This document shows positions 1 through 13,760 of a stretch of DNA of 23,947 bases, piece after piece. The notes below the pieces were generated by a model that made no database searches, was not told the DNA's origin, and saw only the letters and a list, made by a program, of their open reading frames with translations. Every line of letters starts with the position of its first letter. Position 1 is the stretch's first letter. This DNA comes from a virus. Position numbers and translations under genes: made by a program. The stretch lies in the IMG/VR virus record IMGVR_UViG_3300012936_000164, positions 1 through 23,947 of that record. The stretch is one strand, 5' to 3'.

Positions 1-1046
1 ATTGATTCCCATATCGCAGTAGTACCAAATGTATCTTGATAATTGACACCACCTTTATAAGCTACAGTCATAGCAAGTGTAATCAATCCCATCTTATCTT
101 CAAGGCGATCAACCAATTGTACATCTTTCATATTATAGTCAATGTACTTTTGGTAATCGTCTTTATATAGATTTTTTAGAGAACCGGATTCTTCATACGA
201 TAATTTCTTTTCACCAAGAACTACGTATGCAATATGATCAAGCTTATAAGATTCTTGAGCGCCATAGGCATATCCAAACTTTTGAAACAATTCTAGATAA
301 TCTAAAACTTGTACACCTTTTATATCGTATGTACTCTGTGTACGATTCATGCGCTTTACTTTACGATGATCGATTAAACCCCATGGAGAGAATTCTCTAC
401 ATCTATCAAGACCAAGCACACGGTTAATACGATTTACAAGATAAGGTATATCGAAAAATCTAACATTCCAACCTGTTATAACATCAGGTATATGTTGTTC
501 AGTTTTCCAATGTTCTAAGAATCGTGCTAGTAATTCATTTTCATTACTACACTTTACATACTTCAAAGGTTTTATAAGCGCAGCTTCTTCATCGTAATCC
601 TGTAAACCCCACACATAGTATATGCCATCTATATTATTTTTTAATGTGATAGCTAATACAGTTTGATCAGCAATATCAGGATCAGGAAAGCCACCTTCAT
701 ATTCTGTTTCAATATCGATTGTAGTAACATTGATCTTATCACGATCGAATGCTATATCTTTAGGAAACTTTTGAGTAATATATTGATGAATATAATTAGT
801 AGCTCCATATATATTGAAACCACCTACATCATTATATTGTTCGAGCCAGTCGCGTGCTTCACGCATTGATCCGAACTCGACTTCGCCAATTGGCGTGCCG
901 TCTAAGCCATGCCATCCAGTCTGTGTTTTAGACGGAACATAAAATTTTGGCTTAAACTTTTCTTTTCTAAAAACTTTTTTACCGGAGCCATCATAGCCCC
1001 GGTAAAGAATATAATTTGAATAACGAACAATATTGGTATAAAACAT
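1..1046 (-). CDS. 43: DNA polymerase gp43 (T4-type family B), N-terminal part, cut by window edge
   Basis: Replicative family B polymerase with 3'-5' proofreading exonuclease. The 348 codons present cover the N-terminal and exonuclease domains; the polymerase domain lies outside the left edge. Visible motifs are Exo I (DIE, D111/E113, followed by PDP as in T4), Exo II (GWNVRFFDIPY, D199) and Exo III (YIDYNMKDV, D308), so all proofreading acids are kept. The protein begins MFYTNIVRYS, which lines up with the start of T4 gp43 (MKEFYISIE), supporting the ATG at 1046. There is no Shine-Dalgarno sequence before this ATG. A strong promoter places the predicted transcription start on the A of the ATG. 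It works with the gp45 clamp and gp44/gp62 loader encoded upstream. Confidence 0.97.
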   Translation of the reverse strand, partial: MFYTNIVRYSNYILYRGYDGSGKKVFRKEKFKPKFYVPSKTQTGWHGLDGTPIGEVEFGSMREARDWLEQYNDVGGFNIYGATNYIHQYITQKFPKDIAFDRDKINVTTIDIETEYEGGFPDPDIADQTVLAITLKNNIDGIYYVWGLQDYDEEAALIKPLKYVKCSNENELLARFLEHWKTEQHIPDVITGWNVRFFDIPYLVNRINRVLGLDRCREFSPWGLIDHRKVKRMNRTQSTYDIKGVQVLDYLELFQKFGYAYGAQESYKLDHIAYVVLGEKKLSYEESGSLKNLYKDDYQKYIDYNMKDVQLVDRLEDKMGLITLAMTVAYKGGVNYQDTFGTTAIWES

Positions 1047-1052
1047 ATAGTT

Positions 1053-1081
1053 ATTCTACCACAGTTCACAGCAATTGTAAA
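1053..1081 (-). promoter_or_regulatory. Host-type promoter for gp43
   Basis: On the minus strand: -35 TTTACA (1076-1081), exactly 17 nt, then -10 TAGAAT (1053-1058) with extended -10 TGG before it. Counting from the -10 box, +1 falls at about 1046, the first base of the gp43 ATG. The -35 to -10 stretch is nearly identical to the promoter before gp45 at 7800-7828. Confidence 0.8.
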
Positions 1082-1089
1082 CTATTATT

Positions 1090-1377
1090 TTAACCTTCAA
1101 CTAATTCAATTGCATCCATTTGTGATTGATTGATACGCTTAAGTATATCTTGATTTACAGTTCCTTTTTCATGATCTTCAAGACGCTTTTGAGCATAAAA
1201 TACAATCATCTGCTTTGTTCCATTATCGCCTGAATTTGATTCTATCCAAGCTGCTCTGTCTTTGCCATCATCTGTAGCACACTCATCAAGTAATTCTAAT
1301 GCCTTGGTTTCATTTAGTTGATCAGCGCAATCTTGCACGCATTCTTTTAGACCTGTAGGTAACGAGTCAATTGACAT
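1090..1377 (-). CDS. Hypothetical 95 aa protein
   Basis: I do not recognise this protein. It is acidic, has three cysteines in its N-terminal third (CVQDCAD and DECATDD) and shows no signal peptide or membrane segment. Its ATG follows the endolysin stop codon directly, and the Shine-Dalgarno GGAGGA lies inside the last codons of the endolysin gene, so the two are probably translated together. The gene stops just before the -35 box of the gp43 promoter. A lysis-related role is possible from position alone, but nothing in the sequence shows it. Confidence 0.75.
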   Translation of the reverse strand: MSIDSLPTGLKECVQDCADQLNETKALELLDECATDDGKDRAAWIESNSGDNGTKQMIVFYAQKRLEDHEKGTVNQDILKRINQSQMDAIELVEG

Positions 1378-2273: not shown

Positions 2274-2522
2274 CTAAGTTCGAACATCTGATACTTCTAT
2301 CTTGACATCCTCTTCAAAGTATTTATCTAACATTTCTAACCGCTCATGAGCATGCCCCATAGTAGTTAATTCTTTTTGTATAGCTTCAACTATATCGCTA
2401 TGTTCACCTATACCTGCAGCATTTCTCATATAAACCATTATATTAGTTTTTGCTCGCTCTAATTCACCTTCAGCATGCATTCTACATGCTTTAATTAATT
2501 GCTGACTAAACTTTTGCGCCAT
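2274..2522 (-). CDS. Hypothetical 82 aa protein
   Basis: Unrecognised small cytosolic protein, charged and probably mostly helical (MAQKFSQQLIKACRMHAEGE at the N-terminus). Its ATG overlaps the pseudoazurin stop codon (TAATG), with GGAGAA upstream, which indicates translational coupling. No catalytic motif, signal peptide or membrane helix is visible. Confidence 0.72.
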   Translation of the reverse strand: MAQKFSQQLIKACRMHAEGELERAKTNIMVYMRNAAGIGEHSDIVEAIQKELTTMGHAHERLEMLDKYFEEDVKIEVSDVRT

Positions 2523-2950
2523 TACAAATTCTCCAGTAGTTCTTTCATTTTTCTCTTTGACTTGCCACGTATCTTCACGTCTTTTATATCATCTAGATTT
2601 GACATGTCATCTCCAACAACTACCATAGCAATCATACCCATTGTTGCATGTGGTGTACATTGGTATAAGTAAATGCCGGCTGTATCAAATGTTATTGATA
2701 CTTCTTTATTATTTTTACTTTTTGCTGGAAGCTCCCATCCTTCAGGACCAGCAATAAAATGTACATTGTGGCCTTTTGATTTTGGATTCCAAGTTATTGT
2801 ATCGCCTACGTCAATACGTGCTATATCTTCGGAGTATACCATTTTTGCTCCATCATCACGTTTATTTAACATATCGATTGTTATGTCTGCAGCAAATGTT
2901 GGAACAGACAATGAAGCTATTACAGCTACAGTTGATAAAAATTTAATCAT
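2522..2950 (-). CDS. Pseudoazurin, exported type 1 blue copper protein
   Basis: A 142 aa precursor: a 20-residue Sec signal peptide (Met-Ile-Lys, hydrophobic core, TFA|AD cleavage) and a 122-residue mature domain, the usual pseudoazurin length (about 123). After cleavage the four type 1 copper ligands are His41 (GHNVHF), Cys78, His81 and Met86 (YQCTPHATMGM); the family's classic positions are 40, 78, 81 and 86. The C-terminal helical extension (DMSNLDDIKDVK...) is also typical of pseudoazurin rather than plastocyanin. Pseudoazurins carry single electrons in the periplasm to nitrite reductase, nitrous oxide reductase or cytochrome c peroxidase. The ATG at 2950 (GGAGAG upstream) is preferred over one at 2974 because it gives a clean signal peptide. 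It overlaps the kinase-like gene by 8 nt. Confidence 0.93.
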   Translation of the reverse strand: MIKFLSTVAVIASLSVPTFAADITIDMLNKRDDGAKMVYSEDIARIDVGDTITWNPKSKGHNVHFIAGPEGWELPAKSKNNKEVSITFDTAGIYLYQCTPHATMGMIAMVVVGDDMSNLDDIKDVKIRGKSKRKMKELLENL

Positions 2951-3428
2951 GACTTTCTCTCCATATATTATCAAAGGATCTTAAACCCTTTTTTTCGAAA
3001 TCTTTTTTCAAATCGTGATATGCTTTATTGAGTTTTTCTTCTTTTGTCATGACACCGCATGCATCCCAATCTATCATTTGCATATCATTACCATTTACTA
3101 TTATATTTTCTAACGCCCAATCACCATGACCAAGTGAACCAGTTTCTTGTATATTACTGTGGACAAATTTTAAAACGCGTTTAACAAATTTTATACCACT
3201 ACCAAGAGTTTTAGCATTTACACCAGGAACTGTTTTCATAATAAAAGTCATTCTAGTTGTACTATAAAAAGTATTTATATAATATCCTGGATTCATAGTA
3301 TCAACCATTTTTATATGTTTATGATACCAGTAGTGATCACAATAATCGAATTCTTTTATATAACATCCATTCCCTTTATAAACACGTCTAGTTCCCCACA
3401 TGTCCGATCTGGATTTTACTAAGATCAT
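2943..3428 (-). CDS. Small kinase-fold (aminoglycoside phosphotransferase/LPS-kinase-like) protein
   Basis: This 161 aa protein carries a kinase catalytic core in miniature. LGHGDWALENIIV is the HGDxxxxN catalytic loop of aminoglycoside/choline and lipopolysaccharide kinases, and MQMIDWDACG is the metal-binding equivalent of the DFG motif. The N-terminal part is much shorter than in normal family members; YIKEFD at about residue 25 could hold the ATP-binding lysine. The substrate cannot be told from sequence; small molecules, sugars/LPS or a protein are all possible. It lies between the DoxX-like gene (7-nt gap) and pseudoazurin (overlap). The nearest Shine-Dalgarno (AGAGGAAG) is rather far from the ATG, so the start is less sure than the identity. 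Confidence 0.75.
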   Translation of the reverse strand: MILVKSRSDMWGTRRVYKGNGCYIKEFDYCDHYWYHKHIKMVDTMNPGYYINTFYSTTRMTFIMKTVPGVNAKTLGSGIKFVKRVLKFVHSNIQETGSLGHGDWALENIIVNGNDMQMIDWDACGVMTKEEKLNKAYHDLKKDFEKKGLRSFDNIWRESHD

Positions 3429-4866: not shown

Positions 4867-5232
4867 TTATTTTGAACCAATGTTATACTTAGGGCAAAGC
4901 TCCCAATCATTCTTTTCTTTAAACGGAATGATCTTTATTTGTCTCATAGGAGCCAAAGGCTCTACTGTAGTATCAATTGATATAAGTCCCCAATCGCTCA
5001 TTAACTGCGCAATTGTATTTCGCCTGGCAATGTCATTTTCTTCTAAGTTTGACTTCTTGCCATCAAGCAAAAATAATTCCTTAAAGTGCACAATAAAGTA
5101 TCTGCCTTGTTTGTGCAAAATATGACAAGATTGATATAGTTTCTTGTCTTTACGTGACGCTACTCCAATACGGGTAAGCGTTTCTCGAACCTTTAAAAAG
5201 TCATCTGGCTCGTTTAGTGTAACCTCTAACAT
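4867..5232 (-). CDS. regA: RegA translational repressor
   Basis: This 121 aa protein (T4 RegA is 122 aa) is recognisable end to end: MLEVTLNEPDDFLKVRETLT corresponds to T4 MIEITLKKPEDFLKVKETLT, followed by LYQSCHILHKQGRYFIVHFK and the C-terminal WELCPKYNIGSK. RegA binds ribosome-start regions of early phage mRNAs, including its own, and blocks translation. The ATG at 5232 is chosen because it matches the T4 start and length. An in-frame GTG at 5271, overlapping gp62 by 14 nt, would add 13 residues and cannot be excluded, since neither start has a strong Shine-Dalgarno. Weak initiation signals would fit autoregulation. Confidence 0.95.
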   Translation of the reverse strand: MLEVTLNEPDDFLKVRETLTRIGVASRKDKKLYQSCHILHKQGRYFIVHFKELFLLDGKKSNLEENDIARRNTIAQLMSDWGLISIDTTVEPLAPMRQIKIIPFKEKNDWELCPKYNIGSK

Positions 5233-5257
5233 AGAGGCAGGTGTCCACTCTATTATA

Positions 5258-5635
5258 TTATTTTCTTCCACCTTTATAAACCTTCTGTTTCAATTCGCTG
5301 AGTTGTTCAGCTGTAAGAAGAGTTAAGGCTTGTCTGGCTTTTTCGTTATTATAACCATAATATTCCTTAACAACATCCACGTCATTATTAGAAACAGACT
5401 TTTGCCATTTTGAAAAGCGTTTCCGTTTCCTGACCATATTTATAAAAAAATCGAATTGTAAACGCTTATCGACTGTGTGATTGACATTCATTTCATTAGC
5501 AAACAATACTGTATCTTGAAAGTAAGATAATGCACGATTAACCATAAAAGGATTATATGCTTTCTCCGCAAGATCATCTACCATAATATCTTTTTTAGTC
5601 ATATTAATAGCATTGACATATTCAAATGGATTCAA
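5258..5635 (-). CDS. 62: Clamp loader small subunit gp62
   Basis: With gp44 this forms the ATP-driven loader that places the gp45 clamp on primed DNA. At 125 aa it is much shorter than T4 gp62 (187 aa) but keeps recognisable segments (NPFMVNRALSYFQDT, LQFDFFINMVRKRKRFSKW) and the position between gp44 and regA. The start codon is TTG at 5635: GGAGGA lies six to seven bases upstream, inside the end of the glutaredoxin gene, and the two genes overlap by 4 nt. An internal ATG (codon 12) is a less likely start. The rare TTG start may hold gp62 output below that of gp44, in line with the loader's 4:1 stoichiometry in T4 (inference). Confidence 0.9.
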   Translation of the reverse strand: MNPFEYVNAINMTKKDIMVDDLAEKAYNPFMVNRALSYFQDTVLFANEMNVNHTVDKRLQFDFFINMVRKRKRFSKWQKSVSNNDVDVVKEYYGYNNEKARQALTLLTAEQLSELKQKVYKGGRK

Positions 5636-7771: not shown

Positions 7772-7799
7772 AATATACTCCGTGGATTAAACATTATTT

Positions 7800-7828
7800 A
7801 TTCTACCATAGTTCACTGCAATTGTAAA
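7800..7828 (-). promoter_or_regulatory. Host-type promoter for gp45
   Basis: TTTACA (7823-7828), 17 nt, TAGAAT (7800-7805), with TGG before the -10. It starts directly after the gp46 stop codon. Predicted +1 near 7793. The spacer differs from that of the gp43 promoter at only two positions. Confidence 0.85.
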
Positions 7829-7831
7829 CCA

Positions 7832-13306: not shown

Positions 13307-13725
13307 TTAATCATATTACCTATAGTTTGATGTCGCCAATTAAGATTATTTATAATCTCTGTTAGCGTTTCAATTATGGTCTTATAGTACTGTATCTTTT
13401 CTTCAGACTTTTGTATCTCAGGATCTGAATCATAGTAATGATCCATTTCACCCTTTAATATTTTTAGACCATTAAAAGGATCTGGATTCCAACCTTTGTC
13501 CTTTAACTCTTCTTCTGACATCTTGCCATTATAATATAACCACTTGTCTTTTAATAAAGACTTTTGTGCAAACTCAGCACGTTTTAACATAAGCTTTGTG
13601 TGAGATAACATTTCTAGATATTTAGCATGCAACACTGGTGTAACACGCGATGATTCATCTAGATTAGTTTGTTTTATCTTGCAGTCTTCTGACCACATTT
13701 CATGTATTTGCTTTAAGTCAATCAT
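13279..13725 (-). CDS. uvsY: Recombination mediator UvsY
   Basis: 148 aa (T4 UvsY 137 aa). It loads UvsX recombinase onto gp32-covered single-stranded DNA. The match to T4 is modest but colinear: the start MIDLKQIHEMWSED, the middle LLKDKWLYYNGKMSEEELKD, and the end NLNWRHQTIGNMIKWKQFESGN against T4 IKHIQDMRAFEAGK. The gene also sits directly upstream of uvsW. The ATG at 13725 has no Shine-Dalgarno, and the strong promoter ahead of it places +1 on that A, so the message should be leaderless. Confidence 0.88.
   Translation of the reverse strand: MIDLKQIHEMWSEDCKIKQTNLDESSRVTPVLHAKYLEMLSHTKLMLKRAEFAQKSLLKDKWLYYNGKMSEEELKDKGWNPDPFNGLKILKGEMDHYYDSDPEIQKSEEKIQYYKTIIETLTEIINNLNWRHQTIGNMIKWKQFESGN
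13347..13354 (-). promoter_or_regulatory. Possible late promoter for uvsW inside uvsY
   Basis: A perfect TATAAATA on the minus strand about 40 bases upstream of the uvsW GTG, within a 7-bp perfect inverted repeat (13343-13358: AGATTAT-TT-ATAATCT). In T4, uvsW is expressed late from its own late promoter, so the position is meaningful. The same box also occurs by chance in AT-rich coding DNA (see rejected items), so this is moderate evidence. Confidence 0.5.
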
Positions 13726-13731
13726 ATAGTT

Positions 13732-13760
13732 ATTATATCATAATATGCCAGTAATGTAAA
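13732..13760 (-). promoter_or_regulatory. Host-type promoter for uvsY-uvsW unit
   Basis: TTTACA (13755-13760), 17 nt, TATAAT (13732-13737), TGA before the -10. Predicted +1 at about 13725, the A of the uvsY ATG. The six bases between the -10 and the ATG (AACTAT) are the same as at gp43. The box starts just after the end of the fibre gene and separates the late block from the early/middle block. Confidence 0.85.

Follow-up and report, generated by a model that had tools for sequence, protein, structure and literature searches.

Gene 43 of a marine T4-like phage has a predicted leaderless layout that alternates with Shine-Dalgarno leaders in close relatives

In T4, the operator of the replicative DNA polymerase gene 43 comprises a hairpin about 40 nucleotides upstream of the AUG and an overlap with the ribosome-binding site, according to a review (PMC3014915). 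In the marine phage studied here, a promoter directly abuts the gp43 start codon, which raises the question of where the gp43 mRNA begins and how ribosomes would load it. The window, i.e. the whole 23.9-kb virus record that was analysed (IMGVR_UViG_3300012936_000164), is a fragment of a T4-like marine myovirus. Its minus strand carries gp55, gp47, gp46, gp45, gp44, gp62, regA, hsp20, an endolysin gene, a 95-aa ORF and the start of gp43, with uvsY and a gene for an UvsW-like helicase further upstream (Table 1). The polymerase was identified by phrog_262 (E=4e-116) and Pfam DNA_pol_B_exo1. A Shine-Dalgarno (SD) sequence is present at most other genes of the window, and none was found upstream of the gp43 ATG.

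Table 1. Coordinates of the gp43 region and of related features in the window
Feature	Position	Strand	Remarks
gp43, family B DNA polymerase	1..1046	-	first 348 residues, continues past the edge of the window; predicted +1 at base 1046
Gap AACTAT between -10 and gp43 start codon	1047..1052	-	6 nt; pyrimidine at -1
Extended -10, TGG-TAGAAT	1053..1061	-	the TAG doubles as in-frame stop just 5' of the ATG
-35 hexamer TTTACA of gp43 promoter	1076..1081	-	T, T, A and C near-invariant in 71 pooled promoters of the predicted leaderless type
95-aa ORF upstream of gp43	1090..1377	-	own SD; stop 43 nt before the gp43 ATG
RegA translational repressor	4867..5271	-	phrog_242, E=4e-60
gp45 (sliding clamp) promoter	7799..7829	-	near-copy of the gp43 promoter, GTTTACAATTGC[A/T]GTGAACT[A/G]TGGTAGAATAA
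uvsY, 148 aa	13279..13725	-	ATG at 13725, no SD; second predicted leaderless gene; Pfam UvsY E=4e-29, phrog_231
uvsY promoter TTTACA-17-TATAAT-AACTAT	13726..13760	-	before the ATG; geometry as at gp43

Read on the minus strand, the region upstream of gp43 is aatag-TTTACA(1081-1076)-ATTGCTGTGAACTGTGG (17 nt)-TAGAAT(1058-1053)-AACTAT-ATG(1046-1044). The two hexamers match the consensus at 10 of 12 positions with a spacer of 17, and TGG stands directly before the -10, so that the promoter has every element of the sigma70 extended -10 type (a TTGACA-like hexamer, 17 nt, TGn and a TATAAT-like hexamer). Transcription from sigma70 promoters usually starts at the seventh base after the -10. The gap before the ATG is six bases long here, so that the seventh base is the A of the start codon itself; this position is deduced from the spacing rule of E. 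coli sigma70, which may not be that of the phage's host. The start codon at 1046 is forced beyond doubt. The in-frame codons 5' of the ATG are TAT, AAC and AAT followed by the TAG within the -10 hexamer, so that translation cannot begin earlier in this frame, and the alignment of the protein with gp43 extends to its first residues. Thus the promoter described in the earlier note (TTTACA-17-TAGAAT with TGG, no SD before the ATG) was found as reported, and its assignment of the start codon was well founded.

We then compared this layout with that of 80 relatives, collected with the polymerase as query, whose starts were lined up and classified by script. The first comparison set consisted of 82 non-cyanophage gp43 genes, the window included, and a sigma70-type promoter with 17-nt spacing was kept by all the gp43 relatives in it. 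Two classes were observed. In 42 of the 82 genes, among them those of the window and of C48C1, the -10 lies 5, 6 or 7 nt from the ATG, and none of the 42 has an SD. The other 40 have the -10 at 20-24 nt from the ATG, and each of the 40 has an SD, usually GGAGG, in a leader of about 15-16 nt. The only intermediate spacing in this set was that of HTVC008M (12 nt between -10 and ATG, no SD). The association between SD and spacing class gave a Fisher p of 2e-24, which is overstated because the relatives are mostly metagenomic contigs with many near-copies, and the same holds for the other raw p-values. The start codon stays ATG while residue 2 varies (MFYT, MAFYT, MSFYT, MKSFYT, MTKFYT), although this constancy is partly built in, the scripts having chosen ATG starts. 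The upstream stop codon lies a median of 38.5 nt from the ATG in the class with close spacing vs 58 nt in the class with an SD; the two medians differ by about one leader length. A quick tree requires a minimum of 9 changes between the two states, and well-supported branches force 4 of these; this indicates that they were exchanged repeatedly, by mutation or recombination.

The earlier note had taken relatives with a leader and an SD as evidence against a leaderless mRNA. Such relatives exist as sister clades, yet they add to the support, since an SD is confined to genes whose promoter is about 16 nt further upstream. The prediction itself gained support, as the geometry recurs in all close and many distant relatives and the absence of an SD tracks it perfectly. 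The proposed alignment of the -10 to ATG distance thus gave 5-7 nt in about half of the first set, and this spacing recurred in further, independent lineages. In the C48C1 lineage, 60 of 79 gp43 genes are at 6-7 nt (0 SD), and in the HTVC008M lineage 36 are at 5-6 nt (0 SD). Altogether, the counts of SD among relatives sharing the close spacing were 0/42, 0/60, 0/38 and 0/35.

When 71 distinct promoters with 6-nt gaps were pooled, TT-AC, TGn, TATAAT and ATG were conserved or near-invariant, and the spacer far less so. Of 55 distinct gaps, 52 end in a pyrimidine at -1 (binomial p 5e-9 vs an assumed 0.6). Together with the A of the ATG, this pyrimidine gives the pattern of a putative YR initiator that coincides with the start codon. 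Furthermore, promoter-to-start distances taken over 11 records were bimodal: 20 cases fall at 6 nt, a second peak spans 17-33 nt, and the range of 8-16 nt is nearly empty. Genes found at the 5-7-nt distance are gp43, uvsY, those for primase and Dam methylase, and a few others. In the window, uvsY has the identical six-base gap AACTAT, and in 34 of 78 relatives the distance from its promoter to the ATG is again exactly 6 nt, with 0 SD. The close layout is therefore not peculiar to gp43, as judged from uvsY in the window and from primase and Dam in relatives. Taken at the level of sequence, replication and recombination genes have a conserved arrangement for predicted leaderless expression, with SD leaders as the alternative in close relatives.

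We propose that a host-sigma70-type extended -10 promoter sets the 5' end of the gp43 mRNA at the A of the AUG or one to two bases off it, and we consider it very likely that the message is leaderless in this sense and loaded by ribosomes through its 5'-terminal AUG instead of an SD. The same promoter layout would drive uvsY here and other replication and recombination genes in relatives, and gp43 would alternate between two discrete states that can be exchanged in evolution, one leaderless and one with a short SD leader. By analogy with lambda cI, translation would follow the 70S/5'-AUG route. The leaderless verdict is drawn from the discreteness of the spacing and its repeated recurrence.

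Each alternative can be set against these data. If RNA polymerase started slightly upstream, or used the promoter differently, the mRNA would carry a very short leader of about 3-8 nt, and initiation would be SD-independent at an AUG that is not strictly 5'-terminal. HTVC008M and its closest relatives, in which 10-13 nt without an SD separate the -10 from the ATG, fit this reading, and the 12-nt gap of HTVC008M shows that strict leaderlessness is not universal. However, in the other lineages the gap measures 5-7 nt, in most cases exactly 6, and a pyrimidine at -1 precedes the A at +1. In the window, the other purines of the gap occupy only its positions 1, 2 and 5 counted from the -10, nearer than the usual start distance; we regard such a leader as improbable. 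Still less probable is that gp43 is translated mainly from mRNA that reads through from the upstream operon, with the promoter in a secondary role. The upstream ORF stops 43 nt before the gp43 ATG, and the promoter/terminator scan called no terminator between 1090 and 1046. In addition, the marine cyanophages S-SM2, P-SSM2 and S-RSM4, which have the T4-like replication cassette and the gp43 family in common with the window, start gp43 at a TAATG or TGATG overlapping the upstream ORF, and no promoter of its own was found there. But in the window the AUG of a read-through mRNA would have neither an SD nor a stop-start overlap, the promoter was kept by every relative of the first set, and the gene two upstream of gp43 encodes an endolysin, a late-type function. 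Finally, a chance pairing of a promoter-like sequence with an ATG in AT-rich DNA deserves practically no weight. The promoter scan of 6 kb gave 36 promoter-like sites vs 25 expected, so that the gp43 promoter by itself is weak evidence; the comparative data nevertheless refute chance, since the hexamers, the 17-nt spacer and the 5-7-nt gap are conserved across diverged gp43 lineages.

T4/RB69 gene 43 encodes a homologous polymerase, and RegA is also encoded by the window phage. The operator of that gene, as described in PMC3014915, has no counterpart in the window's predicted promoter-derived mRNA: this mRNA is without leader or SD, and an Rfam scan of the window was empty, as was a tRNA scan. 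The departure from T4 claimed in the earlier note thus stands as far as the hairpin operator is concerned, but some T4-related gp43 polymerases lack translational autoregulation (same review). The further claim that neither leader element could exist is too strong. T4 RegA sites overlap the AUG or sit immediately 5' of it (PMC3014915), and consequently a leaderless mRNA loses only the 5' part of the site. A RegA operator is an A+U-rich unstructured stretch with the AUG and a 5' poly(A) tract; the gp43 sequence is A+U-rich from the AUG on, and a leaderless mRNA would lack the 5' tract. By analogy, RegA may still act on the leaderless gp43 mRNA, and read-through mRNA from the upstream ORF could still carry the upstream sequence.

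A 13-bp, terminator-like hairpin at 978-1006 (minus strand), followed by AAAAGTTTTT, lies inside gp43 codons 14-24 (+41 to +69 of the mRNA) and is strong in the window and in the relatives L001-L017. In close relatives, the third base of an Arg codon and its partner covary (G-C, A-T, T-A), which the protein motif may explain. We rejected this hairpin as a replacement operator, as it is also found in SD-led relatives and follows the codons of the conserved LYRGYDxxGK motif.

The promoter of gp45 provides a further link within the window. Over about 31 bases of the minus strand, the gp45 (7799-7829) and gp43 (1052-1082) promoters are near-identical, and they share an imperfect dyad GTTTACA-n5-TGTGAAC; this likeness suggests promoter duplication or shared regulation. 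The gp45 gene is SD-led: a leader with an SD follows its promoter, with an ATG near +1. Of 23 distinct promoters of SD-led gp43 genes, 13 have a comparable ATG 5-7 nt downstream of the -10 (17 of 23 counting GTG/TTG). In many SD-led gp43 mRNAs (e.g. L022, L024, L036, L062), an ATG at the predicted +1 is out of frame and opens a short ORF overlapping the gp43 start. These ATGs, with that of gp45, resemble the 5'-terminal AUGs of SD-leadered E. coli mRNAs (Beck et al. 2016, PMC4965119). They could be functional in the same way or, unlike the E. coli cases, the 5' AUG of SD-led gp43 may be a relic of a leaderless start.

Among phage genes, leaderlessness is known best for repressors, lambda cI being an example. 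The likeness to such mRNAs consists in the 5'-terminal AUG, the lack of an SD and initiation by AUG recognition (PMC9031893, PMC4965119). Unlike lambda cI, the present case is a prediction and concerns the replicative DNA polymerase of T4-like phages, together with uvsY, primase and Dam. A literature search of limited coverage found no description of leaderless gp43 or of leaderless T4-like genes. The replicative polymerase and the recombination mediator of widespread marine T4-like phages would thus have a conserved, predicted leaderless layout, and the textbook T4 gp43 operator would be without counterpart in the promoter-derived mRNA of these lineages. Sister phages that gained or lost an SD leader of about 16 nt constitute a natural experiment on the purpose of leaderlessness, whereby a non-standard translation start becomes directly testable on an essential gene. 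The layout may also serve the annotation of start sites and promoters, given that searches for middle and late promoters failed in a published survey of pelagimyophages (PMC7029224). A wider reading, which we hold only tentatively and think rather doubtful, is that of a leaderless regulon: gp43, uvsY, primase and Dam would be translated differently from the SD-led gp44, gp45, regA and late genes, control would have moved from the RNA operators of T4 to promoter DNA and the state of the ribosome, and lineages would switch gp43 repeatedly.

A phage-encoded ribosomal protein S21 was discarded as an enabling factor, since it occurs only in HTVC008M-lineage records (L118, L132, L171, L172) and was not found in those of the window group or the C48C1 group. 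In the HTVC008M lineage, the gp43 promoters of L117-L160 carry an inverted repeat over the -35, TTGACTT-n2-3-AAGTCAA or TTGAC-n6-GTCAA, which is operator-like and more palindromic than shuffles. As a shared operator these repeats were dismissed, being clear only in that lineage and weak in the window group. Downstream of gp43, a predicted leaderless gene of 367 aa in L092 (7383-8486, minus strand) matches Pfam DruA, a Druantia protein (E 6e-8), and belongs to a PHROG family of unknown function. In the window, a gene for a plastocyanin/azurin-like copper-binding protein is located among the phage genes at 2522-2974 (minus strand).
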